Below are positions 5,012 through 42,340 of a stretch of DNA of 43,427 nt, piece by piece. The stretch's first letter is position 1, and every line of letters starts with the position of its first letter. The stretch is taken from assembly GCA_026399755.1 (NCBI GenBank), contig JAPLQI010000083.1, positions 1-43,427 on the forward strand. The letters run 5' to 3'. The stretch comes from Pseudomonadota bacterium (GTDB lineage: Bacteria; Pseudomonadota; Gammaproteobacteria; Burkholderiales; Chitinibacteraceae). The notes under the pieces are model-generated. The model made no database searches and had not been told where the DNA came from. It saw only the letters and a list, made by a program, of their open reading frames with translations. The position numbers and the translations under genes are program-made.

Positions 5012-5047
5012 AGCTATACGCCTTTAAGTACATCCACTTTCAATTAA

Positions 5048-5767: not shown

Positions 5768-5794
5768 CTTATAGTTACCTTTAATTTTCATTTA

Positions 5795-8245: not shown

Positions 8246-8747
8246 CCCATCCCCTCTTTTATAAAAAAATAGTAATATAGCAATAATTTAACATTACCAG
8301 CCGGTATGGCCCTGTATATTAGCGAGCAAAACGATGGTTAATTCAAAACCACAACAAACAACTCATAAGTAAATTAATAAATAGTGCACGAACTATTTGC
8401 ATCTACACCCAAAAACAAATAAAGCGCGCAAAAAAACGCTCACAGCAGGTATTTAATTATCAAACAAAATAGATATGCATCTTATGCGAAAGTGGAAGCC
8501 AAAGTTTAGCCAACCTCTTCACTGATAAAGAATCAAGAGTAGTGCGGCCATGGCATGGCCCAAGTAATCTAAGTATAAGTTTTAATTAAGAATGATATGA
8601 GATGGTACTGGGTGCAAAACAAAAGCATCGTTATGCACCCTTACACATAGCGCATTAACAAAATAAGCGATAATTCTTATAGTTTTTATCAAAAAAAACC
8701 GAAGAAACATTTAATTAAAGCTAATTAATGTTTATGCAAAAATTAAG
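8246..8747. other. intergenic region between major pilin and usher
   Basis: No credible reading frame is seen in these 502 AT-rich bases. They contain an AT-rich hairpin followed by a T tract on the minus strand just after the pilin stop (8691-8733) and a GC-rich 15-bp palindrome, GGCCATG-G-CATGGCC (8546-8560), that could be an operator. The usher promoter, if it has its own, should lie here, but no convincing -35/-10 pair was picked out. Confidence 0.5.
8691..8733 (-). terminator. weak terminator or attenuator after the major pilin gene
   Basis: On the minus strand an AT-rich imperfect inverted repeat (AAACATTAATTA pairing with TAATTAAATGTTT, one bulge, 8705-8733) is followed within a few bases by a run of eight T (8691-8698). 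Its weakness and its position between pilin and usher fit partial read-through, but this is inference. Confidence 0.45.
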
Positions 8748-9272: not shown

Positions 9273-9427
9273 AGCATTTATTCCAAATATATTAATTAGA
9301 GATGAGTGCGTCATATACAGATAGCCATATGGCATTGACGCCACCGACAGAAACAATTTTATGCTTATTCAATTTAATCCACACGTCAGCACAGACTCAA
9401 TTAAGACGAGAACATTCTTTTACTGTC

Positions 9428-13558: not shown

Positions 13559-13581
13559 GGCTGTGGTGTAGTTATTAAAAA

Positions 13582-13611
13582 AGCGACTCTTGCCTAGAGT
13601 CGCTTTTTTTT
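13582..13611 (+). terminator. rho-independent terminator of alaS
   Basis: Stem AGCGACTCT / AGAGTCGCT with a 5-base loop followed by eight T, starting 24 bases after the alaS stop. The A-run before the stem would also allow function in the reverse direction. Confidence 0.93.
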
Positions 13612-13709
13612 GTTTTTATGCGGGGAAAGCTAGGTTTTGAAATACAGAGGGCACGGAAACTTAAGGGTTTGGCTCAAAATAACTTTCCGAATTAATCTAT
13701 CTCATTACC

Positions 13710-13727
13710 CAATCCTGTCAACTTAAG
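13710..13727 (-). repeat. dispersed 18-bp motif, copy 2
   Basis: CAATCCTGTCAACTTAAG, the reverse complement of the 122-139 copy with one mismatch. Confidence 0.6.
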
Positions 13728-13744
13728 ATCAACGTAAAGAATGG

Positions 13745-13830
13745 TTTTGCTTAGGGTGTGCAAGTCGTTTTTCTTGCGCACCGGCCTTCGGTGCGCAACG
13801 GCTTCGTCGTTGTGCAGCCTACGAGCACCG
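13745..13830 (+). repeat. MITE-like element (family B), copy 1
   Basis: The segment begins GGTTTTGCTTAGGGTGTGC and contains the hairpin TTGCGCACCGG-CCTT-CGGTGCGCAA and then GTCGTTGTGC. Related copies lie at about 27025-27102 (reverse orientation) and 39484-39565. No coding capacity is seen, which fits a non-autonomous mobile element. Confidence 0.6.
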
Positions 13831-13899
13831 ATTTAACTTATGACATAAGCTGACGTCGATAGACGTGTCTCCCCCCAAGTCTTTACAAACAGAAACGTG

Positions 13900-13924
13900 A
13901 CTTATAGTCCGTAGACCTATAAGT
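13900..13924 (+). promoter_or_regulatory. C-box operator of a restriction-modification controller
   Basis: ACTTATAG (13900-13907) and CTATAAGT (13917-13924) form a perfect 8-bp inverted repeat around TCCGTAGAC. This closely matches the known C-box consensus (ACTTATAGTCnGTAGACTATAAGT type) bound by controller (C) proteins of type II R-M systems. It lies 43 bases upstream of a truncated C-protein gene, the expected autoregulatory position. Confidence 0.85.
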
Positions 13925-13967
13925 ATCACCCACCCCATGATAACCATAGAAAAAAAGGGGCATCACC

Positions 13968-14105
13968 ATGGAAAATCAAGGCTTAATTGAATTTGGCATT
14001 CGGCTAAAAAATATACGTTTAGCGCAAGGATTAAGCCAAGAACAATTGGGCATGATTGCCGAATTAGATCGCACCTATATCAGTGGCATTGAGCGCGGAG
14101 TTTGA
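13968..14105 (+). pseudogene. truncated XRE-family controller (C) protein of an R-M system
   Basis: An ATG preceded by AAGGGG at good spacing opens a 45-codon frame that encodes the first helix-turn-helix of a C protein: RLKNIRLAQGLSQEQLG, then LDRTYISGIERG, the recognition-helix signature shared by C.BamHI-type controllers. Intact C proteins continue with an RN-type turn and about 30-35 more residues; here a stop follows one codon after IERG, where the sequence switches into an unrelated gene. The C-box upstream is intact. No methyltransferase or endonuclease gene is found nearby, so this is a deletion remnant of an R-M locus. The DNA-binding helices are complete but the dimerisation helices are missing, so activity is unlikely. 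Confidence 0.85.
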
Positions 14106-14394
14106 CATTCAAGGCTTAGAGCTGGATTGGTGCTTAATCGGCGGGGACGCTGATTATCGTTACCAAAACAGGCAATTTGAACACTGGAAGTTCACAGGCA
14201 CCACGTGGAAGAAAAGGCATCAGCTTGAACAGCAGCGCTTTTTAGAAAACGCCTATCGCGTTTTACTCACCCGCGCCCGCCAAGGCATGATTATTTTCAT
14301 CCCCCTTGGCGATCAAGCTGACCCGACGCGCCAGCCACAGTTTTTAGATGAAACTTTTGATTATTTAATGAGTTGCGGCATCGAGCTTATCTAA
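14098..14394 (+). pseudogene. 3' remnant of a DUF2075 helicase-like gene
   Basis: About 98 residues match the C-terminal end of DUF2075 (Schlafen-like/UvrD-type ATPase) proteins. EFDIQGLELDWCLI is the motif VI-side segment of these helicase-like proteins, WKKRHQ and LENAYRVLLTRARQGMIIFIPLGD are the last conserved motif, and PTRQPQFLDETFDYL closes the protein. The Walker A and B motifs and everything upstream are gone. The reading frame can be opened only by a GTG inside the truncated C-protein gene, so it is not expected to be an independent gene. The junction with the C gene lies near 14097-14103 and shares the bases GGAG/GAG, consistent with a simple deletion. DUF2075 proteins are often near R-M and other defence genes. 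Confidence 0.85.
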
Positions 14395-14425
14395 TTGAGC
14401 GATCAGCAAATAGGATTACGACCCC

Positions 14426-14941
14426 ATGCCCCCCACCCTCCAATCTCGCCGACTACAATCCTCCGCCGATATCGCAGCACTGCAATCTGTACTCGAAAAC
14501 ACCGCGACCTTTAGCTTACTCACCGAGGGGCATTTGCCTAGCCCAACGGCGGCGCAGGAAGCCATGTTGGCGAGGCCTCCTAATTTGAGTGCGGACGATA
14601 AATGGATGTTGGGGTTTTATCTTGATGGCAATCTAATCGGCTGTGCAGATATTTGCCGTGGCTATCCAGAGGCAGGCACGGCGTTTATTGGCTTGCTGCT
14701 TTTTGCCGAGCCATTTCAGGGCCAAGGTCATGGCAAAACCGCAATGCAGCATTTACGCAGGCTTGCTCTTACATGGCATTGCCAACGTATCAAAATTTCG
14801 GTGATTGCCAACAATACGGCAGCACTGGCATTTTGGCGGCGAGAAGGCTTTGTTGAACGACTCAGAAAACCTGCGATAGGCTTTTTGGACGATGCCATTG
14901 TGATGGAATGCCAGTTAAATCTGTTGCAAGCTGCACACTAG
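14426..14941 (+). CDS. GNAT-family N-acetyltransferase
   Basis: This 171-residue GNAT protein would transfer an acetyl group from acetyl-CoA to an unknown amine. The central beta strands (WMLGFYLDGNLIGCADI) lead into strand 4 (AFIGLLLFAEPFQGQGHGKTAM), which contains the acetyl-CoA pyrophosphate-binding signature Q/R-x-x-G-x-G/A as QGQGHG. The later NNTAALAFWRREGFVER segment is the typical last motif of the fold. The start ATG has AGGA about 9 bases upstream. It lies 31 bases after the helicase remnant, in an accessory region with two further GNAT genes. The substrate cannot be told from the sequence. Confidence 0.88.
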   Translation: MPPTLQSRRLQSSADIAALQSVLENTATFSLLTEGHLPSPTAAQEAMLARPPNLSADDKWMLGFYLDGNLIGCADICRGYPEAGTAFIGLLLFAEPFQGQGHGKTAMQHLRRLALTWHCQRIKISVIANNTAALAFWRREGFVERLRKPAIGFLDDAIVMECQLNLLQAAH

Positions 14942-25433: not shown

Positions 25434-25638
25434 CATCCATCTCCCATAAATATATGCAGCAATAAGCTTTATGGATTGTGGTGGGTAAACATCGGCTGAC
25501 AATCATACTTACGGCCTTTTCCGTGATAAGCGGTGCAAACGCACAGACCTTTCTACACAAACAAACACCCTCTTTAATCAATAATGCGCAAGCGCATAAA
25601 TCAAGGCCACAGCACTTAGTTTTTAAAATGTGTAATTT

Positions 25639-25685
25639 TACCTATACACCCCAATGTTTAATAGGTAAATTAAATGCACATTTAA
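25639..25685. promoter_or_regulatory. candidate operators upstream of hmp
   Basis: Two palindromes lie within 65 bases of the hmp start: TACCTAT (25639-25645) with ATAGGTA (25661-25667), and TTAAATG-CA-CATTTAA (25670-25685). The second resembles the AT-rich dyads bound by the nitric-oxide repressor NsrR in other proteobacteria, with incomplete match. The assignment is a guess. Confidence 0.3.
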
Positions 25686-25702
25686 AAAACACAGAGATAC
25701 AT

Positions 25703-26902
25703 ATGCTGAATGCCACCCAACGCGATCTAGTCCGCGCCACCGCTCCCATCCTCAAGCAACACGGCGTTGCACTGACCACACACTTTTATGCACGGATGTT
25801 TCAGCACAATCCGGAGCTAAAACAAATCTTCAACGAAGGCAACCAGCAATCAGGCGCGCAGCAGCAAGCACTCGCCATGGCTGTGGCGGCCTACGCCGAG
25901 CATATCGACAACCCTAGCGTGCTCGCCCCTGTGCTCACCCATATCGCCAATAAGCACATCAGCCTTGGCATACGCCCAGAGCACTACCCGATCGTGGGCC
26001 ATCATTTGCTGGCATCTATCCGTGAAGTATTGGGCGCTGCTGCCACAGATGAGTTAATAGCAGCTTGGGCCGCAGCTTATGGTCAGCTTGCTGATGTATT
26101 AATTGCCGAAGAAGCGCAGCTCTATGCTGCAGCCGCTTTTAAACAAGGCGGCTGGACAGGCTGGCGTGGTTTTGTGGTGGCAAAAAAAGAACAAGAAAGC
26201 AGCGAAATCACCTCCTTCTACTTACGCCCCGCCGACGGTGGCAGCGTGCCCGATTACGCGCCAGGCCAATATATTTCAGTAAGGATGTTTGTGCCAGAAT
26301 GGAATCTAATGCAGCCGCGCCAATACAGCTTGTCTGATGCACCTGGCAACGATTACCTGCGTATCTCAGTAAAACGTGAACAAAGCGGCGACATCATAGG
26401 CCAAGTGTCTAATCTACTGCACAACACAGTAAATGTTGGCGATGTGGTCGACCTGGCCCCGCCAGCGGGTGATTTTGTCCTGCATCAGGATCGAACAACC
26501 CCCGTCGTTTTAATTAGCGGCGGCGTGGGCATTACCCCAATGATGGCGATGCTGAAGCACTTAGCAAAAACCGGCAGCGATAGAGCCGTGCGCTTTGTAC
26601 ACGGCTGCCGTAATAGCGATGTGCATGCATTTAAAAACATCGTCAATCAGCTAGCGACTCAAGAATCCAGCGTCGAGAAAGTAGTGTTTTATGGCGACGC
26701 CTGCCCAGACCACAGCCACGACCATTTAGGCTATGTCGATCTAGCTAAAATCGCTGACAGCGTGATTTTGCCCGACGCCGATTACTACCTCTGTGGGCCA
26801 CTGGCCTTTATGCAAGCCCAGATCAAATCATTACAAGCGATGGGAATTAGTGCAGAGCGGATTCATGCGGAGGCATTTGGGACTGGGGGCGTGGCGGCTT
26901 AG
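25703..26902 (+). CDS. hmp: flavohaemoprotein (nitric oxide dioxygenase)
   Basis: The 399-residue enzyme converts NO plus O2 to nitrate using NADPH or NADH, protecting against nitrosative stress. An N-terminal globin domain (1-140) includes distal-side Tyr29 and proximal His85 (NKHISLGI). The FAD-binding domain (about 150-260) has RQYSLSD and GDIIGQVSNLLH, and the NAD-binding domain (about 265-399) has GGVGITPMMAML and YYLCGPLAFM. It has standard length and order. The ATG at 25703 is chosen because it opens the globin directly (MLNATQRDLV); the frame is open far upstream without a domain. It stands alone; palindromes upstream may mediate NO control. Confidence 0.96.
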   Translation: MLNATQRDLVRATAPILKQHGVALTTHFYARMFQHNPELKQIFNEGNQQSGAQQQALAMAVAAYAEHIDNPSVLAPVLTHIANKHISLGIRPEHYPIVGHHLLASIREVLGAAATDELIAAWAAAYGQLADVLIAEEAQLYAAAAFKQGGWTGWRGFVVAKKEQESSEITSFYLRPADGGSVPDYAPGQYISVRMFVPEWNLMQPRQYSLSDAPGNDYLRISVKREQSGDIIGQVSNLLHNTVNVGDVVDLAPPAGDFVLHQDRTTPVVLISGGVGITPMMAMLKHLAKTGSDRAVRFVHGCRNSDVHAFKNIVNQLATQESSVEKVVFYGDACPDHSHDHLGYVDLAKIADSVILPDADYYLCGPLAFMQAQIKSLQAMGISAERIHAEAFGTGGVAA

Positions 26903-29634: not shown

Positions 29635-32600
29635 TTAAACCACCTTCAGTCCCGCATTCATTTTCTGCAAAATAGGCAAGGCTTCGCCAAAGTTAAACCT
29701 TTCCAAGGCAATTCTAAAGGCGGCAAACTCGGCCGGATCAAAGAAATCTGACATGGCATCGCCGTATTTACTCATCACGGTTAAGGCTTCTGCATCCATA
29801 TCGTTCAGCAAGCGCTCTAGCCAAATTAATAAGTTTTGTAACTCTTTAATCGGTATTTTCCCTACGGGCTTGGGGGCATTAGCAAAGGCATCTTCACCGT
29901 TGATATAAATAAGCACTTCATGCATTAAAACATTTAAGTGTTTATCTAAAGCCAGCAAATCTTCTTTGACCTCATTGATCCCGCCGCCATGAGAAATCGC
30001 GGATTCAATTCGCCCAGCAATACCTGCCACCGCCACGCCACCCAAAGTAGCACTTAGCCCTTTTAGGGTGTGTGCAAAACGCAGTGCAGGCTCTAATTCA
30101 TTATTGAGCAAGGCTTGATTAATCCGCGTCACGCAATCAACTTCAGTGCTGCTAAATTGCTTCAACATCCGTAGATAGAGTGAGGGATTATTCATCACAA
30201 ATCCCAAGCCCACCTTCACCTCCAGCTCAATAAACGTGGCTTGTGCAACAGCCGCCGACAGGCTTGGTGCCTGCGCTACAACAGGCGCGGGCGCTTCCAA
30301 TGGCACAGCAAGCGGCACTTCTAAATGTTTTTCTGCTGAGGGCTGCGCCAATACCTCCACGCTTTCGGCGATAAGCACCAACGGTGTAAGCACGCCAGAT
30401 GGCGAGGTAATTCGCCAGTGTTTTAAGCAGCTAAACAACTGCATGGGATCAATAGGCTTAGAGACATGATCATTCATCCCCAAATCTAAGCAACGCGCCC
30501 GCTCTTCCACCATGGCATGCGCTGTCATGGCAACCAATGGAATATGGCTATAGCGGGCATCGGCACGAATACGTTTGGATGCCTCGTAGCCATCCATCAC
30601 CGGCATCTGCATATCCATTAAGATTGCTTCAAAGTAAGTTGGGCCAAATTCTTCCAGCCGATCTAATGCCTCTTGTCCGTGATTGGCTACCACGACTTCT
30701 ACCCCAACCATCGCCAGCAGCTCAGTAGCAATTTGCTGATTAATTGGGTTATCTTCCGTTAGTAAAACCCGCATCTTCTTCAGCCCTGCGCCTTCTTCTT
30801 CCTGAGGCTCTTTATTACTTAATGCCACATCATCATCCCGAGCAAACAGGGAAATCAGGCAATCGGTTAGGGATGATGCGTTTACGGGTTTAGTCAGCAC
30901 CGCACCAATATTCAGCGTCTGAGCCTGCACATAAATATCTTCACGATCAAATGCAGTGACAATCACAATTTTTGGCCCCTCTTGCGGCAGTGCTTCTTGA
31001 ATCTTTTGCGCGGCCTGAGCGCCATCCATATGTGGCATTTGCCAATCCAGCAAAATCAAGCCAAACGGATCACCTCGCTGCTGAGCCGCAATAGATAACT
31101 CCACAGCACCTTGCCCCGAGCCTACATTTTCAATTCGCACATCAAAACGTTTTAATACTTCGATAATAGCGAGACGCGCATGTTCATGATCATCCACCAC
31201 CAACACACGCATATTATTAATTTCTTTGGGCGCGGCTCGCTTTCTAATTTCTTTTTCTTCCACGCCAAACCAAGCCGTGAATACAAAATGACTCCCTACC
31301 CCACTTTGACTTTCCGCCCAAATTCGTCCGCCCATTAATTCAACTAAACGCTTACTAATTGAAAGCCCTAGGCCCGTACCACCAAATTTACGGGTGGTAC
31401 TGCTATCGGCCTGAGTAAAGGGCATAAATAATTTGCCGAGTTGGTCGGGCGTCATACCAATACCGGTATCTCTCACTCTAAATTCTAATTGCACCTGTTC
31501 TTTATTTCTATCTAAGCAAGTAATGGTGATTTCCACATCCCCCACTTCGGTAAATTTAACTGCATTATTTACCAAATTAATCATAATCTGGCTTAATCGT
31601 AAAGAATCCCCAACTAGGCAAGGTGGAATATCTTCTGGGTTATGAATAACAAACTCTAAGCCCTTTTCAAATACCTTTTGTGTCGTTACCGTACACACAT
31701 TATTAAGCACTGTTTCTAATTCAAACGGGGCCAATTCAATATTCAGTTTTCCTGCTTCAATTTTTGAAAAATCTAGAATATCATTAATAATCCCCAGCAA
31801 AGAAGTACCTGCATGATGGATTTTAGATAAATAATCTCTTTGTTTAGGTGGCATTTCTGCTTTTAATGCCAAATGCGACAAGCCAATGACCGCATTCATT
31901 GGGGTGCGGATTTCATGACTCATATTGGCAAGGAAACTGGATTTCACTGAGGCGGCTTCTTCTGCGCGGGTTTTAGCTAATTGCAGCTCTTGCTCAACTA
32001 ATTTTCGCTGACTAATATCACGCGCAAATAAAGTGCCACTGCAATGCCCATCCATATTTAATACCGTCATGCCAACTTCGATCGGCAACAAACTACCCGA
32101 GCGATTACGTGCCAGCAATTCCCAAAATCGAGCCGTGGTAATTCGCGAGGTGATTTCGCTTAAACCCCGCTCTAATACCAAAGGAAAATCGCCATCGCCT
32201 TCAATATGAATCAAGCTTTGTAATTTCAAACCCACCACTTCAGTAGCAGCAAAACCAAAAGTTAGCTCTGCAGCGCGGTTCCAATCCGTAACGCAACAAT
32301 CTTGATCAAGCAAGATCACCGCAATGGGCGCGCCTTCAATCACAGCCTTTGATTGCATTTCACTTTGCTGCAAAGCCATTGATCGGCGATCCACCTCTTG
32401 CTCCAGCCCTTGCTTATGCGCTGCTAGCTCGGCATTGCTTTCTGTCAGCACAGACATTAATTCATCACGTGTTTGCTCATTAATAATATTTTTGACCTGC
32501 AAAATGCTTTCTGCTTTTTGAATGCCGACACGAAACTCAAGCAGCACGGCCCCATCGGGCATAAGCTGCTGCACATCAAAAAAAGCCGACAAAGTGTGTT

Positions 32601-32838
32601 TTACCCAGCCGCCTTCTACACGCACCTCAAAGCTAAGGGCATCATGATCAAAACCCAATGGCAAAATATGATGAGAAGTGGACTGCCTGACAAATTGGCA
32701 AAGGGAATAAAAGCCCGTGAGTAAGAAATCGCTGCGCATGCGATTTAATTGCAAGCATTCTAGTGCTCGTCGTAATTTATCTCGGGCAATAAAAACACCT
32801 TCTTCTGAGCGCAAATCCAACAGGCCAAGTTCAGTCAT
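29635..32838 (-). CDS. stressosome-linked hybrid histidine kinase (PAS-HisKA-HATPase-REC-REC-HPt)
   Basis: The 1067-residue cytoplasmic hybrid kinase has no transmembrane segment. From the N-terminus: about 1-105, a domain with the pattern of RsbT-type anti-sigma ATPases ([19 protein letters not shown]) but without the N-box asparagine; a coiled coil (about 110-160); a PAS domain (about 165-275); HisKA with His308 (MSHEIRTP); HATPase with NAVKFTE and [19 protein letters not shown]1 with Asp598 ([10 protein letters not shown]); REC2 with Asp742 ([10 protein letters not shown]); and an HPt domain with His923 (AHTLKGL). It starts within the stop of the RsbX-like gene (ATGA overlap), so it belongs to the stressosome operon and is likely its output. 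No cognate response-regulator gene follows. Confidence 0.93.
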
Positions 32839-33413
32839 AATGTGCACTTTATCGCCAGGCAAGTGGCATCGTCGTACAACTTCCCAAAACGGCTGAGCAA
32901 ATTAGCTACCATTTGATTCAGGCTATTCCTGCGCTCCAACAGTATTTGATCCGCAGCAATATGCTCCTGTATGCCATCCGTCGCCAAAATAAATACATCG
33001 TCGCTTTTAAAGCTAAATGTTTCGATACGAATGCTGCGCAAAATAATGCCTAATGTGCCCGCCTGAGCCGGAAAGGTATAGCAATCCTGCCCCAGCTTAC
33101 GCATCACCGTATTGCCGATAGTAATACAGCGTGCATTGCCATCATCGCCCAAAAAAGCCATCGTAATGGCCGTTCCACGCGAACCACGGATATGCACATG
33201 CAAGGCCTTGAGCATCAATTCAAGATCTTCACTGCTGTTTTCTTCTAGCCATTGCTCACACAGCCTAGCCAGCTCATGCGCCTCTGGCCCATGCCCCAGC
33301 ACATCCAAAATACCGACTAATACGCCGTGCTCCATTTTCTTGATAAAGGTGCCATCACCGCACACCACCTCACCAAAACAAGGGCGTAAACAACGCGCAT
33401 ATTCGAAATGCAT
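32835..33413 (-). CDS. rsbX: RsbX-like PP2C-type phosphatase
   Basis: The 192-residue protein is of the length and fold of RsbX (199 residues in B. subtilis). PP2C/SpoIIE metal and catalytic motifs are CGDG near residue 19, [10 protein letters not shown] near 36-45, [18 protein letters not shown], and the final DDAT. In stressosomes RsbX removes phosphate from RsbR and RsbS to reset the complex. The ATG directly follows the stop of the RsbT gene, and its own stop overlaps the start of the hybrid kinase by 4 bases, placing it between kinase switch and output. The small size and absence of a sensor domain favour RsbX over RsbU/RsbP. Confidence 0.88.
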
Positions 33414-33830
33414 TTAGGTTTTCCACTTGCGAAATAAGACTCGTGTACCCATTTCTGGCTCTGACGTGATTTCAAATTCATCCGCTAAACGACGCGTTCC
33501 CGGCAAGCCCAACCCTAGTGTCCCTTTGGTGCTGTAATGCTCGGACATCGCCAGTGCCATATCTTTAATACCTGGGCCTTGATCTTCCGCCATCACCTCC
33601 AGCCCCTCACGGTTTTTGACCACCACCCAAGAAAAGGACATCACGCCCTCGCCAGCGTATTTCACAATATTGGTGGCCAGCTCAGAAGCACCGGTCGTTA
33701 TTTCTGTGACTGCAACGGGTGAAAAACCACATTGTTTGGCTAAAGAAAAAGTGTAAGCCACCAGCATAGCCACATCCGCATCGTTGCGTATTTTTCGCCA
33801 AACTGTGGCCATTTCTAGGCTAGGTTTCAT
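33414..33830 (-). CDS. rsbT: RsbT-like switch serine kinase
   Basis: This 138-residue GHKL-fold serine/threonine kinase has the N-box segment VTEITTGASELATNIVKYAGEG, G1 box AEDQGPGIKD, and G2 box KGTLGLGLPGTRRLAD, as in B. subtilis RsbT. In a stressosome it phosphorylates the STAS domains of RsbR/RsbS and then leaves to activate a downstream partner. The ATG at 33830 is chosen since it overlaps the RsbS stop by 11 bases, giving translational coupling; a later ATG at 33812 would still keep the fold. Order RsbR-RsbS-RsbT-RsbX is exactly that of known stressosome loci, supporting this over a generic anti-sigma factor. Confidence 0.9.
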   Translation of the reverse strand: MKPSLEMATVWRKIRNDADVAMLVAYTFSLAKQCGFSPVAVTEITTGASELATNIVKYAGEGVMSFSWVVVKNREGLEVMAEDQGPGIKDMALAMSEHYSTKGTLGLGLPGTRRLADEFEITSEPEMGTRVLFRKWKT

Positions 33831-34188
33831 GGAGTAAATCCAGAGCTTGTCTAATGGTTTGACAGCCACGCAGCGCAGATAAATCACTATCTAGCGCCGC
33901 CAGCCCCGCAACAACACCGGGCCTAAACCCAATAAATACTGTTTTTGCCCCCATGATTTTTAACATTTGTGTGAGATCAACTAAGGCTGCAAAGCCATCC
34001 ACATCCAGGGCGTCCACCTCAGACAAATCCAGCATCACGCCTTTGACAGCAACCTTGGCCACCTGCTGCAATAGCTTACTTTGCAGAGCAATCATCGTAG
34101 AGGGCCGCAAATCGCTTTGCACACAGGCAAGTAATGCATCTTCAACTACAGAAATTGCTACCCCTCCTCCTGAATCGTGCTCGTTCAT
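33820..34188 (-). CDS. rsbS: RsbS-like STAS scaffold protein
   Basis: The 122-residue single STAS domain closely follows RsbS: VAISVVEDALLACVQSDL at the start, GVMLDLSEVDALDVDGF in the phosphorylation-loop region, then KIMGAKTVFIGFRPGVVAGLAALD and RQALDLL. RsbS forms the stressosome core with RsbR and holds RsbT. The serine phosphorylated by RsbT in B. subtilis (Ser59, in DSF) aligns without gaps to Val63 (LDVDGF), so that switch site is missing. An excellent ribosome-binding site (AGGGGAGGTG) precedes the ATG. It is 84 bases downstream of the RsbR gene and overlaps rsbT. The assignment rests on sequence pattern and gene order. Confidence 0.88.
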   Translation of the reverse strand: MNEHDSGGGVAISVVEDALLACVQSDLRPSTMIALQSKLLQQVAKVAVKGVMLDLSEVDALDVDGFAALVDLTQMLKIMGAKTVFIGFRPGVVAGLAALDSDLSALRGCQTIRQALDLLHET

Positions 34189-34272
34189 TACACCTCCCCT
34201 GAGCTCTATTTTTTTGCTTTATGCCTCAGCCAAGCCGAAAACCGGCCCCTTATGCATAAACATCAACAGAAG

Positions 34273-35175
34273 CTAAGCCTCATCCACTTTTTTCATTCTG
34301 ATACCCACACTCTTAAATGCCTGCTCTAGCGCATCACGCAAAGTGGCATGGGTAGTCATGCCCTCAATATCAATCCCTAAATGCACAATAGTTTGCGCAA
34401 TCCCTGGTGACACCCCCGATATCAGGCTGGTACAGCCCATTAAGCGAGTCGCCTTAGTGATTTTAATCAGGTGATTGGCAACGCCCGAATCCACAATCGC
34501 CACACCAGAAATATCCATAATAAATACACGGGAGCGGGTTTCAGAAATCTTCATTAAAATGGCCGCCATAATGTCTTGCGCCCGTTTTGAATCAATAATC
34601 CCCACCACCGGCAGCATTAAAATATCCTGCCAAATCATGGTGACTGGCGTAGACATCTCCATTAAGGCACGGCTTTGATCATTAATTCTTTCATTAATTA
34701 AGCGACTATAGGTTTCCACTACAATCGTGGTATCTAAATGCAATAATTTAGTAATTGAGGCAACGGCCTTGCCATACTCCTCACTAAACAATCCACCGTC
34801 ATAAAGTTTCTTAGTAAACAACACAAATGAGTAATTCATGCCTGCAAAATAACTAGGTAAAGATAAACCAATCCGCGCATGAGTTTCGCCCAAACGACGG
34901 CGATCCTCCATATAGGCATCATCTAGGTGAGCGGCAAAAAAAGTTTTCCAATAATTTAGCTGCGAATTTTGTGCCCGCTTTTTCACCTCATCATTCGCCA
35001 TCAGCGTTTGATACTCTGGCAACTCGCGCATCCAATCATAAAAATGAGTAATGTATTCGGACATTCTCGGCACGACTAAAGCGCCATATTTACGCACTAC
35101 CTCAAGATCCACCTCATCAATATCATGCAAACGCATGATGTCTTTAATCGATGTTTGGCTGGTATGTTCATGCAT
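34273..35175 (-). CDS. rsbR: RsbR-type stressosome sensor with globin domain
   Basis: This 300-residue protein has an N-terminal protoglobin/globin-coupled-sensor domain (about 10-165) with aromatic helices (YWKTFFAAHLDD) and the GETHARIGL motif, where His99 is the likely haem ligand. The C-terminal STAS domain (about 175-292) holds FIMDISGVAIVDSGVANHL and SGVSPGIAQTIVHLGID. The residues phosphorylated in B. subtilis RsbR (Thr171 and Thr205) align with Ser196 (IIDSKRA) and Ser230 (IVDSGVA). Comparable haem-binding RsbR proteins occur in Vibrio stressosomes. The start at 35175 is set by AGGGG at 7 bases; two upstream in-frame starts are less well placed. It is the first gene of the operon. Confidence 0.92.
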   Translation of the reverse strand: MHEHTSQTSIKDIMRLHDIDEVDLEVVRKYGALVVPRMSEYITHFYDWMRELPEYQTLMANDEVKKRAQNSQLNYWKTFFAAHLDDAYMEDRRRLGETHARIGLSLPSYFAGMNYSFVLFTKKLYDGGLFSEEYGKAVASITKLLHLDTTIVVETYSRLINERINDQSRALMEMSTPVTMIWQDILMLPVVGIIDSKRAQDIMAAILMKISETRSRVFIMDISGVAIVDSGVANHLIKITKATRLMGCTSLISGVSPGIAQTIVHLGIDIEGMTTHATLRDALEQAFKSVGIRMKKVDEA

Positions 35176-35907: not shown

Positions 35908-36440
35908 TATCAAATATCCTTCGTTGTATGAACCAACACAATCCACATTGAAGTTGAAACAAATTTATCTTGTAAATATAGGTTAATTTAAATAACCCAT
36001 ATCAATCAATGCCAAATAAATAATTTTATCATAAATATTTTTAAAAATAGAATAAAAACAATCAGTGCGCATGAAATGCAATTAACAATGTGCTTTATCA
36101 AAAATAAAACACCCCGCAAAAAGAATGAAACTTTCCACAAGAAAAATCGTCCATCTTTCAGACAAACCTTACTCCTTATTTCGAATACACTCTATTAGCT
36201 TGACTATTGATCGGGGAATACCAGCATTCTCTATACACAAGGGAATAATAGTTTACAAGCGACAAAAGAAGGCCGAAAGCAACTTACTCAAACAAATAGC
36301 GTAAATGTAATCGATACTATAGGGCATCTGAAATCACAAGCCCAAGCCCCCTAATATAACGACTACCTAGCAATGACCTGCCAAAGATGGCTGTGCAAAT
36401 ACGCAAGCCGAAGACCTACCAAAAAAGCAAAGGAACCTGC
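35908..36440. other. AT-rich intergenic region before the mannoside genes
   Basis: About 530 bases of mostly AT-rich DNA hold no convincing gene; an in-frame upstream start at 36387 only lengthens the glycosidase. Promoters of the divergent DUF4124 gene and of the glycosidase must lie here. A LacI-type operator candidate is listed at 36306-36319. Confidence 0.5.
36306..36319. promoter_or_regulatory. candidate LacI-family operator
   Basis: TGTAATCGATACTA agrees with the LacI-family consensus TGNAANCGNTNNCA except at the second-last base. It lies 122 bases upstream of the glycosidase start. No LacI-type repressor gene is in the window. Confidence 0.25.
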
Positions 36441-39431
36441 ATGAGCGCCATTCTCTTTTATGACCACCAACTGGCTTATCATGGCGATCGGCCCCGACCG
36501 GAGGACTTGGCGCTTTGGCAGGAGCACGGCACCTTGGCCGATTGCAAGACTTTGATTAATGCGCTAAACAGCGCCTCTGCAGGTAGCTGCTTAGTTGCCA
36601 GTCATGGCCCTTATTTTCCGAGTGAGGCATGGCCGGTCTTGCTACGCTTTTTACAAAATGGCGGTAATTTGCTCAGCATGGGCAATATGCCTTTTTCCGC
36701 CCCTAGCACTTTGTTTAGGGATTTAAACATCCATGAAATGCTAGCTATCAATACAGCTGCAACGCTTAGCATAGAGGCCAGCCAAAAATATCCACTTCTC
36801 ATGGATAAAACCCATCTTTTTACGCCACAAGACGCTAGCTGTGGCTTTGTGCTAATGCCAACAAAGCATAAAGATTGCCCCAAGGAATCAGGCTCGAGCG
36901 GGCCAATGGATGCCCGAATTTATCCGCTCATTAGCAGCATCGACGCCGCAGGCCGCGCCATTGCCGCGCCGGTCGTACTCATCGAAAATCATCGAGGCCG
37001 CTTTGCTGGTAGCCGCTGGATCTTTGTGAATGTAGATGCCAGCGCCCTGTTTTGGGAGCAAGGCGGCAGCGAGGCACTGCTTGAGTGGGCCAAATTTTGC
37101 GGCCGAGGCGTAAGCGAAATCTGGATTAAACCCGATTTCGCCTGCTACTACCCCAGCGAAGTCCCTACGATTAACTTACAAATTGAAGCCTTACGTAGCA
37201 ATGCAGCTTGCCAGTGGCAATTTGAAATCAAAATCATGCAAGCGGGCAAGATGCTGATTCAAGAAACGCTAGCGCTCACTACTACCCCGCACGGCCCTGT
37301 GTTTCACCGCAGCACGCTACCTATGGTGGTTGTACACGGCTATTACGCCATCCACTGCCGAGCCGTTTCAGCCTTTGGCGAAGTCCGTGAATTACAGCAG
37401 GGATTTTGGGGGCGAGACCACCGCTTACTCGAAGAAGGCCAGCCACTTTGCGCAGGCCGCGATTACTTCACCCGTGGCGGCAAGCCCGTGCCGATTGTCG
37501 GCATGACCTATATGGCCAGCGATGTGCATCGCAAATTTTTACAATTACCCAACCCAGCGGTATGGGATAGGGATATGGCCGAATTTGCCCGCATGGGCAT
37601 CAACTATATTCGCACCGGCATCTGGACCGCATGGCGACAAGTGATGTTTAGCGATGGCCACGCGCAAGAAGCTGCCTTACGCGCCATCGATGCCTTCTTA
37701 CACTGCGCCAAACGCCACAATCTGGAAACGTGCTTTACCTTTTTTACCTTTACCCCAGAAACATGGGAAGGCCAAAATCCCTACCTAGACCCACGCGCTA
37801 TCGCTGCACAAAAGCGCTTTATTTCAGCCATTGTTAGCCGCCACAAAAACAGCAGCCATGTGCACTGGGATTTAATCAACGAGCCATCCATGTTTAACCC
37901 CGAGCAGATTTTCCTTGGGCCGCGAAGCGTGCAAGACACTATCGAAATCGCCGCATTTAGAACATGGCTGCAAGAGCAAAACGCAGATATCGCCAGCTGG
38001 CAGCAGCGCTGGAACCGCAGCCCTGCCGATCTGCCCGATTGGAACGCGGTACTTCCACCGCAACATCAGGATATAGGCCATAACCCAACTGAAATTCTGC
38101 CTAAGCAACACGGCATTTGGCTGGATTACAGCCTCTTTAGCCAAGCCATGCTCAATCGCTGGATCGCCGATTTAAGCGCCACCATCCGTGCCATCGCCCC
38201 GAACCGCCTGATTACAGTCGGCCAAGACGAGGCACTGGGGATGCAACGTCCATCGCCGATGTTTTTTGCCGAAACGGTGGATTACACCAATGTGCATAGC
38301 TGGTGGCTGAATGACGATTTGGCTTGGGATACTATCTTTAGCAAAACGCCAAATAAGCCAAGCCTCGTGCAAGAAACCGGCATCATGCATATCGAAAACC
38401 CTAATGGGCGCAGTAAGCGCAGCGAAACCGAACTCGCCCATATGCTAGAGCGCAAATATGCTTACGCATTTATTAATGGCGGCGCGGGTGCAGTACAGTG
38501 GTTGTGGAATATCAACTACCATATGGATAACATCAACGAATCGCATATTGGTGCATGCCGAGCCGATGGCACGCGTAAGCCCGAAGCCATGATCAGCGAA
38601 GATTTCGGCAGCTTCTTTAAAGCCATCGCCCCGATGATGCAAGACAGGCAGCTGGAAGACGTGGCGGTGATTTACCCCTTCAGTAACGATTACGGCAACC
38701 GCCGCTTTGCGCTAGAAGCCACGCAGCGCTTAGTGCGCGTCATGCAATACGAGCTGAAAGTGCCGGTACGCGCTATCAGTGAATATCACCTCGCCGACTT
38801 AGATCACGCCCCCGCCAAGCTGATTATCATCCCCAGCCCGCACGCCCTATCGCAAGCCGCCCGCGATTGGATTGGGCTATGTAAAACGCCCATCTTACTG
38901 ACTGGCCCCTGCGACTTAGACGCTTACTGGCAACCTTGCCAAGCCCTAATGAGCGAATCAGACACGTGCAATCTGCAGCGTGAGGAATCTATCCATATTG
39001 GTAGCCATAAGTATCGCGCCAGCTTTGGTGGTGACAAAATCGCCAAGCTTAGCAAGGGAAATTCACTGGGTAACTTACAAACCACAGGCAACATCCTTTG
39101 GTGCCCACTACCCCTAGAAATGAACGATCGCACTGAGCCGCTGCTTGCGCTCTATCAAACCGCGCTGGATTGGGCAGGCCTAAGCTCACCTTTAAACTGG
39201 CTATCCGGCGAGCAACCCGGCGTATTCGCCCAGAAACTCAGCTTTGAGTTTGGCGCATTATGGATTTTGGTGAACGAATCAGGGCAGACAGAAGCCATAA
39301 GCTTTGAAGACAAAGCCAGCGGCATCACCTACTCACTCACCATCGCCAGCGAGCGAGCGGTCTTATTTGCTACAGACAAGGAAGGCAAAGTGACGGCAAG
39401 ATTGAGGAAGCATAAGGTGAATCAGCTGTAA
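36441..39431 (+). CDS. clan GH-A glycoside hydrolase, probably mannoside-active
   Basis: This 996-residue protein has no signal peptide, so it is cytoplasmic. The N-terminal part (about 1-330) is a beta-rich and flavodoxin-like domain of unknown role. A TIM-barrel (about 340-680) carries the GH-A acid/base Glu481 in HWDLINEPSMF and nucleophile Glu645 in SLVQETGIMH, 164 residues apart; the C-terminal part (about 700-996) resembles the GH42-type trimerisation and beta domains. It could be a beta-galactosidase-type (GH42/GH2-like) or beta-mannosidase (GH5-like) enzyme; the adjacent GH125 and mannose isomerase favour a mannoside. The ATG at 36441 follows AAAGGAAC; an earlier start at 36387 is less likely. 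Its exact family cannot be fixed by eye. Confidence 0.82.
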   Translation: MSAILFYDHQLAYHGDRPRPEDLALWQEHGTLADCKTLINALNSASAGSCLVASHGPYFPSEAWPVLLRFLQNGGNLLSMGNMPFSAPSTLFRDLNIHEMLAINTAATLSIEASQKYPLLMDKTHLFTPQDASCGFVLMPTKHKDCPKESGSSGPMDARIYPLISSIDAAGRAIAAPVVLIENHRGRFAGSRWIFVNVDASALFWEQGGSEALLEWAKFCGRGVSEIWIKPDFACYYPSEVPTINLQIEALRSNAACQWQFEIKIMQAGKMLIQETLALTTTPHGPVFHRSTLPMVVVHGYYAIHCRAVSAFGEVRELQQGFWGRDHRLLEEGQPLCAGRDYFTRGGKPVPIVGMTYMASDVHRKFLQLPNPAVWDRDMAEFARMGINYIRTGIWTAWRQVMFSDGHAQEAALRAIDAFLHCAKRHNLETCFTFFTFTPETWEGQNPYLDPRAIAAQKRFISAIVSRHKNSSHVHWDLINEPSMFNPEQIFLGPRSVQDTIEIAAFRTWLQEQNADIASWQQRWNRSPADLPDWNAVLPPQHQDIGHNPTEILPKQHGIWLDYSLFSQAMLNRWIADLSATIRAIAPNRLITVGQDEALGMQRPSPMFFAETVDYTNVHSWWLNDDLAWDTIFSKTPNKPSLVQETGIMHIENPNGRSKRSETELAHMLERKYAYAFINGGAGAVQWLWNINYHMDNINESHIGACRADGTRKPEAMISEDFGSFFKAIAPMMQDRQLEDVAVIYPFSNDYGNRRFALEATQRLVRVMQYELKVPVRAISEYHLADLDHAPAKLIIIPSPHALSQAARDWIGLCKTPILLTGPCDLDAYWQPCQALMSESDTCNLQREESIHIGSHKYRASFGGDKIAKLSKGNSLGNLQTTGNILWCPLPLEMNDRTEPLLALYQTALDWAGLSSPLNWLSGEQPGVFAQKLSFEFGALWILVNESGQTEAISFEDKASGITYSLTIASERAVLFATDKEGKVTARLRKHKVNQL

Positions 39432-39483
39432 ATAAATCGGGGAGAACAAACGAGCATCCCTGAGCATCCAATAGTAAAAAACC

Positions 39484-39565
39484 GGTTTTCATAGGGTGTG
39501 CGAGTCGTTTTTCTTGCGCACCGTTTTTCGGCACACCGACTTAGTCGTTGTCCCCCCATAAAACC
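39484..39565 (+). repeat. MITE-like element (family B), copy 3
   Basis: Starts GGTTTTCATAGGGTGTGC and shares the 19-base string GTCGTTTTTCTTGCGCACC with copy 1. It ends GTCCCCCCATAAAACC, with near-inverted ends GGTTTTCAT and ATAAAACC. The right end resembles bases 42862-42880 next to the IS3 element. Confidence 0.65.
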
Positions 39566-39629
39566 GAATTGATGCCCTACTAAGCAATAAGTATCTGCAC
39601 AAATTGAAATGAACCAGGAATGTAGCCTT

Positions 39630-39773
39630 AGGGTGGGTTAGGCCAGAAAATGCATTCAATATAGGCGCTGCCCTATCCTGGCCGTAACCCACCGCAGCGC
39701 CGTGCCATGGTGGGTTACGCGCGACATAGATCAGCACCCTAATGTGTATCAAGAGCGCCCTAACCCACCCTAC
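39630..39773. repeat. pair of REP elements of the GGGTGGGTTA subfamily
   Basis: The first runs from AGGGTGGGTTAGGCCAG to CTGGCCGTAACCCACC (39630-39693). The second runs from GGTGGGTTACGC to GCGCCCTAACCCACCCTAC (about 39708-39773). The inverted ends and paired arrangement match bacterial interspersed mosaic elements. They fill the gap before the GH125 gene. Confidence 0.85.
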
Positions 39774-39863
39774 GATGACCTTTTACTTCTGCAGAAATTC
39801 TGTAGATACTTAGGCCCCCTAAAGCTAAACCACACATCCTTTCATCAATAGCTGAGCCATCCC

Positions 39864-41171
39864 TTGCAGCCAAAAAAATTCCACAGCCCCGCCGTCAACG
39901 ACCATATCGAAAGCATCAGCCAGCACATCTCTAATCCCGCCTTAGAGCGCTTATTTCGCCAGTGTTACCCCAACACCCTCGATACCACCGTGGCGTTTCA
40001 GATGGTGGATGGCCTGCCGGATACTTTTGTAATTACCGGCGATATCCACGCCATGTGGCTGCGGGACAGCGCGGCGCAGGTTTGGCCTTATTTAGCGCAT
40101 ATCCGAGCAGACCCTGAGCTTGCCACCATGATTGCCGGGCTGATCCGCCGCCACAGCGCCTGCATCCTGATCGATCCTTACGCCAACGCCTTTAACGACG
40201 GCCCTGCCCATAGCCAATGGCAGAGTGACAACACCATCATGTTGCCCGAATTGCACGAGCGCAAATGGGAGCTGGATTCGCTGTGCTATGCCATCCGACT
40301 GGCGCACGGCTATTGGCAAGGCAGCTCCGACCGCAGGCCTTTTGATGCGCAATGGCTGGCAGCCATGAAGCTAGCTGTAGCCACCATGAAAGCGCAGCAG
40401 CGCAAAGAGAATCGCGGGCCTTACTCTTTTACCCGCAGCGGCAGCTGGCAAGCCGATACCTTGGCTTGCGATGGCTGGGGCAACCCTGCTCGCCCCGTGG
40501 GGCTGATCGCCTCAATGTTTAGGCCATCGGATGACGCCACTGTTTTGCCGTTTTTTGTGCCATCCAACTTTTTTGCCGTGATTAGCCTGCGCCAGCTCGC
40601 CAGCATGGTGCTCGACCTCGACTCAGCCTTTGCCACCGAATGCACCGCTCTGGCTAATGAAGTCGCCGCCGCGCTGCAAGCCCACGCCATTGTTCAGCAC
40701 CCTAAACACGGCGCAATTTACGCCTATGAAGTGGACGGCTACGGCAGTGCGCTGCTAATGGACGATGCCAATATTCCCAATCTACTGTCCTTACCTTATC
40801 TAGGGGCAGTAGCGCAGAATGAAGAGGTCTATCAAAACACCCGCCGCTTTGCGCTCTCCTTTGACAACCCGTGGTTTTTTAAGGGGGGCCAGTTTGAAGG
40901 CAATGGCAGCCCGCACACGCTTGCGCCGATGATTTGGCCGATGTCCATCATCATGCGTGCCATGAGCAGCGATCAAGACGACGAAATCAGCCTCTGCCTG
41001 CACATGCTTAAAAGCAGCCACGCCGAAACTTACTTTATGCACGAATCATTTAATGCCAATCAGCCGCAGCAATTTACCCGCAGCTGGTTTGCATGGGCCA
41101 ACACCCTGCTGGGTGAACTCATCAGCAAAATAGCCCAAGAGCGCCCCCATTTACTCTCTGCAAAGGAATAG
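39864..41171 (+). CDS. GH125 exo-alpha-1,6-mannosidase
   Basis: The 435-residue (alpha/alpha)6-barrel protein has GH125 hallmarks: DTFVITGDIHAMWLRDSAAQVWPYL near residues 53-76, YANAFNDGPAHSQWQSD, SFTRSGSWQADTLACDGWGNPARPVGLIASMFRPSDDA, VPSNFFAVISLRQLA, and FMHESFNANQP. By motif position Asp203 and Glu394 are the candidate catalytic acid and base (Asp220 and Glu393 in the Clostridium enzyme). Family members release mannose from non-reducing alpha-1,6 ends, for example in N-glycans. The start is a TTG (an in-frame stop lies five codons upstream); no better start is available. It is followed after two bases by the isomerase gene. No signal peptide: cytoplasmic. Confidence 0.93.
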   Translation: MQPKKFHSPAVNDHIESISQHISNPALERLFRQCYPNTLDTTVAFQMVDGLPDTFVITGDIHAMWLRDSAAQVWPYLAHIRADPELATMIAGLIRRHSACILIDPYANAFNDGPAHSQWQSDNTIMLPELHERKWELDSLCYAIRLAHGYWQGSSDRRPFDAQWLAAMKLAVATMKAQQRKENRGPYSFTRSGSWQADTLACDGWGNPARPVGLIASMFRPSDDATVLPFFVPSNFFAVISLRQLASMVLDLDSAFATECTALANEVAAALQAHAIVQHPKHGAIYAYEVDGYGSALLMDDANIPNLLSLPYLGAVAQNEEVYQNTRRFALSFDNPWFFKGGQFEGNGSPHTLAPMIWPMSIIMRAMSSDQDDEISLCLHMLKSSHAETYFMHESFNANQPQQFTRSWFAWANTLLGELISKIAQERPHLLSAKE

Positions 41172-41173
41172 CC

Positions 41174-42340
41174 ATGTTTCGCACTAGAGAATTCTTACTT
41201 AAACATATTCGCCATACGATGGCGTTTTACGACCCGATTTCGGTCGACCCGGCGGGTGGTTTTTATCATTACTATATGGATGACGGCAGCGTTTACGATA
41301 AGGAAAGCCGCCACCTCGTCTCGTCCACCCGCTTTGTATTTAATAACGCCATGGCGTGGCTAGAGTTTGGCGAAAAGGAGTATCAGGCGCGCGTCAGGCA
41401 CGGCATTGATTTTATCCGCAAAGTGCATTTCAACCCGCTTTCCGGCGGCTACGCTTGGGAAGTTAAAAACGGCGAAGTGACGGATGCCACCAACCAATGC
41501 TACGGCCTCGCCTTTTTGATGCTGGCTTACGCCTGCGCCTATCGCAGCGGCATGGATGAAGCCAAAGTATGGCTGGATGAAACTTACGACACCATGGAGC
41601 AACATTTCTGGCTGCCCGAATACGGCGTTTACGCCAGCGAAGCCAGTAGCGATTGGGTACTAGATGATTATCGCGGCCAAAACGACAATATGCACGGCTG
41701 CGAAGCCATGCTCGCCGCCTTTGAAGCCACCGGCGAAATTCGCTATTTAGACCGAGCCAAACTACTGGCAGCCAACTTTACCCAGCGCCAAGCCGCCTTA
41801 ACCGAAGGGGCAATCTGGGAGCATTTCCGCACCGATTGGACGCCCAATTTGCAATACAACAAGGGCAACAAGACCAACATCTTCCGCCCTTGGGGCATCC
41901 AAACAGGCCACCAAACCGAATGGGCCAAACTGCTACTCATTTTAGACCGCCACGACCCGCAGCCCTGGCATCTAGCCCGCGCCCGCGAGCTATTTGAGAC
42001 CGCCATGTCATCAGGCTGGGACGAAGCACACGGCGGGCTAATCTACGGCTACGACTTAGACGGCGAGCCTTACGATCAGGATAAATACTTCTGGGTACAA
42101 GCCGAATCCCTCGCCGCCGCTGCCTTGCTGGCGGATCGCACTAGGGATGAAAAATACTGGCAAGCCTACGACAAAATCTGGACCTACAGCTGGGAGCATT
42201 TTGTCGACCACCAACACGGCGCGTGGTACCGCGTACTCAGCCCCGACAACCAGAAAATCGACCAACACAAATCCCCAGCGGGCAAAACCGACTACCACAC
42301 TATGGGCGCGTGTCATGAGGTTTTGAAGGTGGTTGATTAA
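41174..42340 (+). CDS. AGE/YihS-family mannose isomerase
   Basis: This 388-residue (alpha/alpha)6-barrel protein belongs to the N-acylglucosamine 2-epimerase superfamily. Three histidines that form the E. coli YihS active site (His176, His248, His383) occur here as His174 (DNMHGCEA), His246 (QTGHQTEW) and His381 (GACHEVL), with identical spacing. YihS and related ManI enzymes interconvert D-mannose and D-fructose (YihS also sulfoquinovose), which fits the adjacent alpha-mannosidase. The ATG has GGA 8 bases upstream, inside the end of the GH125 gene, and follows its stop by two bases, so the two are translationally coupled. An epimerase acting on a mannose-containing disaccharide is an alternative. 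Confidence 0.92.
   Translation: MFRTREFLLKHIRHTMAFYDPISVDPAGGFYHYYMDDGSVYDKESRHLVSSTRFVFNNAMAWLEFGEKEYQARVRHGIDFIRKVHFNPLSGGYAWEVKNGEVTDATNQCYGLAFLMLAYACAYRSGMDEAKVWLDETYDTMEQHFWLPEYGVYASEASSDWVLDDYRGQNDNMHGCEAMLAAFEATGEIRYLDRAKLLAANFTQRQAALTEGAIWEHFRTDWTPNLQYNKGNKTNIFRPWGIQTGHQTEWAKLLLILDRHDPQPWHLARARELFETAMSSGWDEAHGGLIYGYDLDGEPYDQDKYFWVQAESLAAAALLADRTRDEKYWQAYDKIWTYSWEHFVDHQHGAWYRVLSPDNQKIDQHKSPAGKTDYHTMGACHEVLKVVD

Follow-up and report, generated by a model that had tools for sequence, protein, structure and literature searches.

Globin-type stressosome modules, in which the genes for RsbR, RsbS, RsbT and RsbX stand in that order (RSTX), have been described in alpha-, beta- and gammaproteobacteria, including Chromobacterium and Herbaspirillum, together with eleven types of downstream architecture that include phosphorelays, with haem binding and with a cryo-electron microscopy structure (Heinz 2022, PMC9237108). 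In Vibrio brasiliensis, control depends on O2, NO and CO give intermediate activity, and redox sensing was judged unlikely (Jia 2016, PMC4976288). In Vibrio vulnificus, deletion of RSTX or of the downstream gene D1 gives similar phenotypes (Cutugno 2023, PMC10014275), and a companion paper reports that the modules are co-transcribed (PMC10436020). The route from Gram-negative stressosomes to two-component outputs was left open in Heinz 2022 (PMC9237108): the D1 protein (VvD1) is described there as having no RsbU_N domain and no interaction between VvRsbT and VvD1 was found, so that another coupling element is needed. Here we analyze a locus of this type in a 43,427-nucleotide stretch of DNA, called the window below (contig JAPLQI010000083.1 of assembly GCA_026399755.1, from a freshwater bacterium of the Pseudomonadota). 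Its probable output kinase begins with a domain that very probably has an RsbW/RsbT-family fold without ATP binding, and its RsbS lacks the switch serine.

A Vibrio-type stressosome locus and its probable output kinase

On the minus strand, from 35175 to 29635, the window carries rsbR, rsbS, rsbT and rsbX, followed by the gene for a 1067-residue hybrid histidine kinase (open reading frame list and Pfam). With a protoglobin-STAS RsbR that has the haem residues, and with adjacent RsbS, RsbT and an RsbX-type phosphatase, this is a globin-type (Vibrio-type) stressosome locus; the original prediction had recognized it from its gene order, and both the Pfam domains and the order kept in relatives agree. 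Loci under 4 kb (L014-L027 and others) were excluded from the comparison of gene order. Among the loci compared, RSTX order is conserved, which excludes a chance arrangement; the exceptions lie in two divergent loci, L048 and L049, the latter on a contig that ends inside the kinase. At L048:10541-11623, one 361-residue protein combines RsbT-like and RsbX-like domains.

The kinase (29635..32838, minus strand, as are all features of the locus) is the orthologue of the kinase that follows RSTX in Vibrio loci, with the Pfam architecture PAS-HisKA-HATPase-REC-REC-HPt. Its start codon, the ATG at 32838, shares an ATGA with the RsbX stop, and translational coupling with RsbX is plausible; the prediction that the next gene encodes a hybrid kinase with two receivers and an HPt domain was correct. 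The N-terminal domain (32455..32838), which by AlphaFold and Foldseek has a predicted RsbW/SpoIIAB fold and is referred to as pseudo-GHKL below, is our proposed docking module. A conserved helical linker (RDELM...; 32344..32469, from alignments), which may be likened to signalling helices, joins it to PAS (32008..32349). HisKA (31750..31944) and HATPase_c (31276..31611) follow, then REC1 (approximately 30859..31197, from a second Response_reg stretch, a BLAST segment and Asp598), REC2 (30430..30768) and HPt (29941..30171). The four phospho-residues (HisKA His308, REC1 Asp598, REC2 Asp742 and HPt His923) are invariant in 30/30 kinases compared, so the relay is presumably still used. No recognisable gene for a sigma factor, RsbV or RsbW stands beside the locus in the open reading frame lists, read by eye and with no genome-wide search, in keeping with the earlier claim that a neighbouring sigma factor is missing.

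Predicted fold of the kinase N-terminal domain

Kinase residues 1-128 match no Pfam family over the cut-off, either in the window protein (residues 1-166 run) or in 27 relatives, and among the best 25 of 155 NCBIfam matches to the kinase none covers residues 1-116. An AlphaFold model built from 11 sequences, the window's first, is confident (predicted local distance difference test, pLDDT, 88.7; predicted TM-score, pTM, 0.82) and has the order beta-alpha-alpha-beta-beta-beta-beta-alpha. Its top eight Foldseek matches are all chains of RsbV/RsbW, UsfX-RsfB or sigF/anti-sigma entries (E 1.5e-3 to 2.1e-3, probability 1.00, TM-score by query 0.54-0.57); the ninth is a SiaB-SiaC chain, and SpoIIAB chains and the Rv1364c RsbU-RsbW protein are in the top 20. 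A second model, built from just the six Vibrio sequences in that set (pLDDT 81.7), has 6m37 as its best match (E 1.1e-5); its first 16 matches are all RsbW, SpoIIAB or anti-sigmaF-complex chains with probability 1.00, and ten of its matches are at E <= 0.001. A profile search confirmed that 6m36_A (which shares its sequence with 6m37), 1tid_A, 1th8_A and 1l0o_A are the kinase chains and not the STAS partner; the chains of 8ih8 and 8jzt lie outside this confirmation.

In profile-profile comparison the N-terminal domain aligns with RsbT colinearly over 105 columns with a score of 22.2 (P 0.006); the best of 100 column shuffles reaches 17.4, and reversed profiles give 8.3-8.4. The N, G1 and G2 ATP boxes, present in 25/25 aligned RsbT proteins, are found by pattern in none of the 27 domains. 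Taken together, the models and profiles indicate that residues 1-128 very probably form an RsbW/RsbT-family GHKL fold that does not bind ATP, and it is plausible that this domain acts as a stressosome-docking pseudokinase. It evolves fast, with 15-26% identity between the window and Vibrio. We found no account of it in the literature searched, which did not extend to the subscription surveys (Pane-Farre 2005, 2017).

RsbU_N was also considered as the entry domain of the kinase and is ruled out by the Pfam search: it is absent from the window kinase, N-terminal residues included, while three RsbU_N effectors score 7e-7 to 1e-8 with the same library.

Distribution of the domain among stressosome loci

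In a profile search of the 43 genomes of the window's family (E <= 0.01), the domain occurs in 13, profile-building loci included, once in each and always at RSTX; it was found in none of the other 30, among them G027, which has a stressosome with an RsbU_N effector. Among 18 genomes chosen for RSTX (G027 again among them), 11 had a match; the 11 matches at E < 0.001 are all at RSTX, and there is one weak second match (E 0.07, G1314). The seven without a match are G027 and G181, which have RsbU_N effectors, G252 (locus L047), which has no identified effector, and the genomes of L048, L051, L052 and L087. Comparison with hhalign supports the domain in L048 (E 2.8e-5), L052 (2.1e-5) and L087 (4e-7), and also in L049 (2e-8); L051 is weak alone (0.0044 over 19 columns) and is counted only through the group L051+L052+L087 (1.1e-6). 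By the same method, five RsbU_N effectors give E 0.28-0.58 against the domain.

Altogether the domain is present in 32 of the 34 loci examined, the other two being L032, with RsbU_N, and L047, with no identified effector and with masked stretches. Kinases of differing architecture keep it: some have no PAS, and that of L048 is non-hybrid and also has no PAS.

The missing switch serine of RsbS

The rsbS gene (33820..34188) encodes a STAS scaffold protein (STAS E 1.8e-7) whose best match in the PDB is 7o0i_a (E 1e-15). Ungapped alignments with 6qcm, 6jhk and 9o4r place Val63 (34000..34002) at the position of the switch serine, Ser59 in Bacillus and Ser56 in Listeria. Over 34 loci this position holds Val in 9, Arg in 9, Gly in 5, Thr, Leu and Ile in 2 each, and Ser, Lys, Asp, Pro and Met once each, where the counts are of loci and not of independent events (L008 and L009 come from a single species, L028-L031 from a single genus, and nine rows from one genus), with L035, L038, L053, L054, L079 and L084 dropped as presumed second copies of genomes already present. 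Both Thr residues belong to V. penaeicida, and the only Ser is that of L032, which has an RsbU_N effector. The serine is likewise retained in L120 (LDSF) and L135 (VDSF), two other loci in which an RsbU_N effector occurs with an RsbS that can be recognised. Thus the switch serine is present in 3/3 RsbU_N loci and in 0/32 loci that carry the pseudo-GHKL domain (two of which have Thr), a comparison from which L121 (no RSTX match) and L132, L133, L134, L136 and L137 (no RsbS match) were left out despite their RsbU_N matches. Because the pseudo-GHKL loci are mostly of one lineage, the link between serine loss and the domain is a group-level association and no sign of repeated co-evolution.

The RsbS of 7o0i likewise has no switch serine (Gly), and V. 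brasiliensis was reported not to share the B. subtilis RsbS sites (Jia 2016, PMC4976288). With both the RsbS serine (Val63) and an RsbU_N effector absent, the window locus is not a canonical Bacillus-type switch, and the stressosomes of this group would have to work without the step of switch-serine phosphorylation. Seven residues upstream of Val63, Ser56 of the window RsbS is kept in 32/34 loci and could be an alternative phosphate acceptor. Natural absence of the serine bears on the debate over whether RsbS phosphorylation is the essential switch: B. subtilis with S59A stressosomes still shows 13% to about 60% of its response to ethanol, according to which RsbR set it has (Gaidenko & Price 2014, PMC3944199), and in Listeria the release of RsbT has been assigned to Ser56 phosphorylation (Martinez-Bond 2025, PMC12154155).

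The globin sensor, switch kinase and phosphatase

The rsbR gene (34273..35175, ATG at 35175, stop ending at 34273) encodes a protoglobin sensor with a STAS domain. Pfam places Protoglobin PF11563 at residues 9-159 (E 2.9e-25) and STAS PF01740 at residues 184-283 (E 9.1e-13), so that of the two families anticipated, Protoglobin and STAS_2, the first was found and the second was replaced by STAS. The proximal haem ligand proposed at the outset, His99 (34879..34881) within GETHARIGL, is His in 34/34 RsbR proteins. Tyr46 (35038..35040), probably of the distal pocket, is Tyr in 34/34; by globin numbering it would be the distal Tyr of Jia 2016. The acceptor positions equivalent to Ser199 and Thr233 of V. 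vulnificus RsbR each hold Ser or Thr in 34/34.

The best solved relative of RsbR is chain 7o0i_B, from a globin stressosome (E 6.4e-127). We take 7o0i to be the V. vulnificus structure, in which case the suggested comparison with RsbR of that species confirms close kinship. By its similarity to 7o0i, the window RsbR would be expected to bind haem and to assemble with RsbS into particles. The chains of the entry stand at 48:12, equal to the 24:6 dimers of Heinz 2022, where it is printed as 7O01. Among the signals first proposed (O2, NO or redox), O2 is the better supported, and NO and redox less so, on the published account of V. brasiliensis (Jia 2016, PMC4976288).

The spacer between rsbR and rsbS (34189..34272) is 84 nt long, whereas three Iodobacter-type relatives (L004, L013, L033) have 8-11 nt; to the eye, its extra stretch is a GC-rich run resembling an inverted repeat. 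A second strong protoglobin match occurs in the same genome as locus L001 (G000:C10:39631-40086, E 6e-35, open frame of 337 residues).

The switch kinase gene rsbT (33414..33830; HATPase_c_2 E 1.8e-10) lies in an open reading frame whose longest form opens with GTG at 33887; translation more probably begins at the Met at 33830, where the longest frame of L034 opens. It is followed by rsbX (32835..33413; SpoIIE E 5.9e-9), which encodes a PP2C-type feedback phosphatase.

Proposed mechanism and alternatives

The comparisons made here establish the genes present and their orthology, the integrity of catalytic and haem residues, serine loss, the restricted distribution of the domain and the absence of D2 from the locus. 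The reading that we favour, and hold to be rather probable, is that of an O2-responsive Vibrio-type RsbR:RsbS stressosome whose kinase output is held or exchanged through the dead RsbT/RsbW-fold N-terminal domain. In such a scheme, without O2, the haem-globin of RsbR would let RsbT phosphorylate the core, as shown in V. brasiliensis and inferred for this organism, and RsbX would reset RsbR. With its acceptor serine missing, RsbS would not be phosphorylated canonically as a step of the switch; the signal would be carried by RsbR, through phosphorylation (Ser196/Ser230) or conformation. The output would be the co-translated hybrid kinase, its dead GHKL domain occupying RsbT-type sites on the STAS core or pairing with RsbT. 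An altered STAS surface, or altered free RsbT, would then change kinase docking, and the change would pass through the helical linker to PAS and HisKA, from which phosphate would travel by way of REC and HPt to a response regulator whose gene lies elsewhere.

A bolder extension, which we put forward tentatively and judge slightly more apt to fail than to hold, is that the dead domain on histidine kinases is a second, unrecognised proteobacterial output adaptor that replaces RsbU_N and docks on the cage or on RsbT, with RsbS phosphorylation abandoned: these would be natural 'S59-null' stressosomes that signal through RsbR phosphorylation or conformation alone.

Several points weigh against our interpretation. 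The Foldseek TM-scores are moderate (0.49-0.57 by query, root-mean-square deviation 3.8-6.5 angstrom), the 11-sequence model that includes the window has no match at E <= 0.001, and the two AlphaFold models share sequences and so are not independent. The match is not significant when the window RsbT alone is compared with the domain profile (E 0.24), nor when the RsbT profile is compared with three short kinases taken together (E 0.3), so the domain may or may not descend from RsbT itself. The informative part of the 13/43 count is the absence elsewhere, since the positives include the loci that built the profile; that search also missed the domain in 4/18 RSTX genomes later supported by hhalign, so that absence by profile search is no proof. 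Domain and serine loss are found together largely in a single lineage, not as a repeated evolutionary event. The docking model is drawn from sequences and predicted structures. The assay of Heinz 2022 (PMC9237108) detected no VvRsbT-VvD1 interaction, which weakens the version with RsbT pairing, but it likewise failed to detect the binding of RsbT to RsbR alone or to RsbS alone. Finally, weak phosphorylation of V. brasiliensis RsbS has been reported (Jia 2016, PMC4976288), so another RsbS acceptor may exist.

Released RsbT might instead phosphorylate the kinase directly, as suggested in Heinz 2022 (PMC9237108), with the N-terminal domain only a structural or dimerisation element. RsbT does retain its ATP motifs, but direct phosphorylation would leave unexplained why an RsbW-fold pseudo-domain stands at the front of differing stressosome kinases and nowhere else in the 43 family genomes, and we consider it unlikely. 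The rapid divergence of the domain and its loss of ATP motifs would also suit an independent small-molecule sensor with a degenerate GHKL pocket, on a kinase merely co-expressed with the stressosome, and in V. vulnificus the regulation of the glyoxylate shunt in the RSTX deletion is intermediate between wild type and the D1 deletion. This is made quite unlikely by the restriction of domain matches at E < 0.001 to RSTX, by the translational overlap of the kinase with rsbX, and by the similar phenotypes of both V. vulnificus mutants (Cutugno 2023, PMC10014275). That this is simply an ordinary, known Vibrio-type locus, with a generic alpha/beta resemblance in the N-terminal fold and a neutral change in RsbS, would fit the orthology of all five genes to Vibrio, the moderate TM-scores and the earlier observation that V. 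brasiliensis does not retain the RsbS sites (Jia 2016, PMC4976288), but is distinctly improbable given that the top 8 and top 16 Foldseek matches come from one family, which RsbT also resembles, that the colinear profile match exceeds all 100 shuffles, and that the serine is missing in 32/32 domain-bearing loci.

If a dead RsbT/RsbW-fold domain does couple the stressosome to its kinase, a conserved, stressosome-restricted pseudokinase on the output protein makes the coupling question directly testable, and the domain suggests how cage and kinase may communicate.

Relatives, D2 and genomic surroundings

Few genomes carry the stressosome system. RsbR was detected at E <= 1e-60 in 5/399 genomes of the order, 1/369 of the class (the window's own) and 4/398 of the phylum, with the window's genome in each set, and in 10/197 genomes of the family of G877; at E <= 1e-40 the window's family has it in 14/43 genomes, and nine of these belong to the window's own genus. 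Between the window and 13 other Vibrio-type loci, mean identity is 60% for RsbR, 35% for RsbS, 49% for RsbT, 37% for RsbX and 44% for the kinase, which makes RsbR the most conserved part of the system. The window RsbR is 95-96% identical to three records titled Iodobacter and 92% identical to a bin labelled Janthinobacterium. Iodobacter belongs to the Chitinibacteraceae, Neisseriales, Betaproteobacteria in the NCBI taxonomy, and by RsbR identity, from which the window's genus group was named, the host is very probably Iodobacter. The literature searched yielded no paper linking Iodobacter with a stressosome, and neither the N-terminal pseudo-GHKL domain, nor the pattern of RsbS serine and domain, nor the absence of D2 in the genus was found there. 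The headline of the original prediction is nonetheless already known: globin RSTX in betaproteobacteria, offered as a novelty, has been published, and although the hybrid kinase is the likely output, phosphorelay outputs have been published in other bacteria (Heinz 2022, PMC9237108).

The order RSTX-kinase-D2, where D2 is a protein with REC and HD domains, occurs in six named Vibrio loci, in 9/10 positive genomes of the family of G877 (some of them the named Vibrio), and in G114 as well as four genomes from another genus in the window's family; the tenth positive genome (L087) has a shorter kinase, and no D2 was found. At one of the named loci, L010 (V. mimicus, 13430-14574), the match to D2 runs across two frames that overlap, owing to a broken gene or a sequence error. 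The HD domain of D2 is presumably HD-GYP.

In the window's genus, 9/9 genomes have no D2 adjoining the kinase. All nine encode, unlinked to the locus, a REC-HD regulator with about 60% identity to Vibrio D2, and a large open reading frame of 771-802 residues lies beside it in the 4/9 loci read (L074-L077); in the window's genome, where its domains were tested, this frame encodes a HisKA-HATPase-REC-HPt kinase. In a free tree, the unlinked protein falls with other paralogues, outside a group of 17 stressosome D2s (support 88/83). Forcing it together with these 17 gives p 0.054 in the approximately unbiased (AU) test (17 + 8 rows, without L046), which does not clearly reject such a grouping. With all 18 stressosome D2s p is 0.0013, largely because of the inclusion of L046, whose D2 itself falls outside the group; holding the 18 together by themselves gives p 0.022. 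From these sequences, the unlinked protein may or may not be a relocated D2. A further REC-HD paralogue (L078:1667-6914, G028) follows a long kinase-like frame and a FIST/NosP-like frame, labelled by eye.

Elsewhere in the window, about 7 kb from rsbR, a flavohaemoglobin with Globin, FAD- and NAD-binding domains is encoded at 25478-26902 (plus strand); we take it to be a likely NO dioxygenase. Upstream of the stressosome on the opposite strand (36387-42340, plus) are frames that by eye resemble sugar enzymes (a large glycosidase-like, a mannosidase-like and an epimerase-like one), and 2889-9356 (minus) has the appearance of a chaperone-usher fimbrial cluster (usher-like, 816 residues; chaperone-like, 247 residues; several pilin-like frames).

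Comparison with known systems

Three proteobacterial RsbU_N loci, L032, L120 and L135, resemble the window in having RsbR, RsbS, RsbT and RsbX, and two of the three drive a histidine kinase; they differ in an RsbU_N effector entry in place of pseudo-GHKL and in the RsbS serine, which they keep. RsbR is of globin type in two of them, L120 (Pfam) and L032 (35% identity to the window RsbR). At L120:6392-10206, the globin stressosome has RsbU_N fused directly to a small histidine kinase, then a second RsbT-like gene; L135:4499-9893 has an RsbRD_N-type RsbR, a serine-bearing RsbS, an RsbU_N-PAS-HisKA-REC kinase and a pair of adjacent RsbT-like genes. The RsbR-RsbS-RsbT-RsbU system of Bacillus and Listeria has the STAS scaffold and the switch kinase in common with the window, and is distinguished, according to the papers cited, by a non-haem sensor, the RsbS serine, an RsbU_N effector and SigB output. 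The anti-sigma kinases RsbW, SpoIIAB and UsfX share the predicted fold of the kinase N-terminal domain, but the window domain has no N, G1 and G2 boxes and is fused to a histidine kinase.

The stressosome of V. brasiliensis (Jia 2016), with a haem RsbR that has a proximal His and a distal Tyr, is alike in its sensor; it is set apart downstream, by its published description and not by its sequences, in having an RsbU-like phosphatase with a CheY-like neighbour. Closest of all is the V. vulnificus type, RSTX-D1-D2. Vibrio layouts had been called related, and more than that holds: all five genes are orthologous and in the same order, the window RsbR is closest to 7o0i, and the Vibrio-type kinases carry the pseudo-GHKL domain. 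The difference lies in D2, which the window's genus does not have at the locus, in a comparison made with Vibrio-type loci other than the VvD1 and VvD2 sequences themselves.

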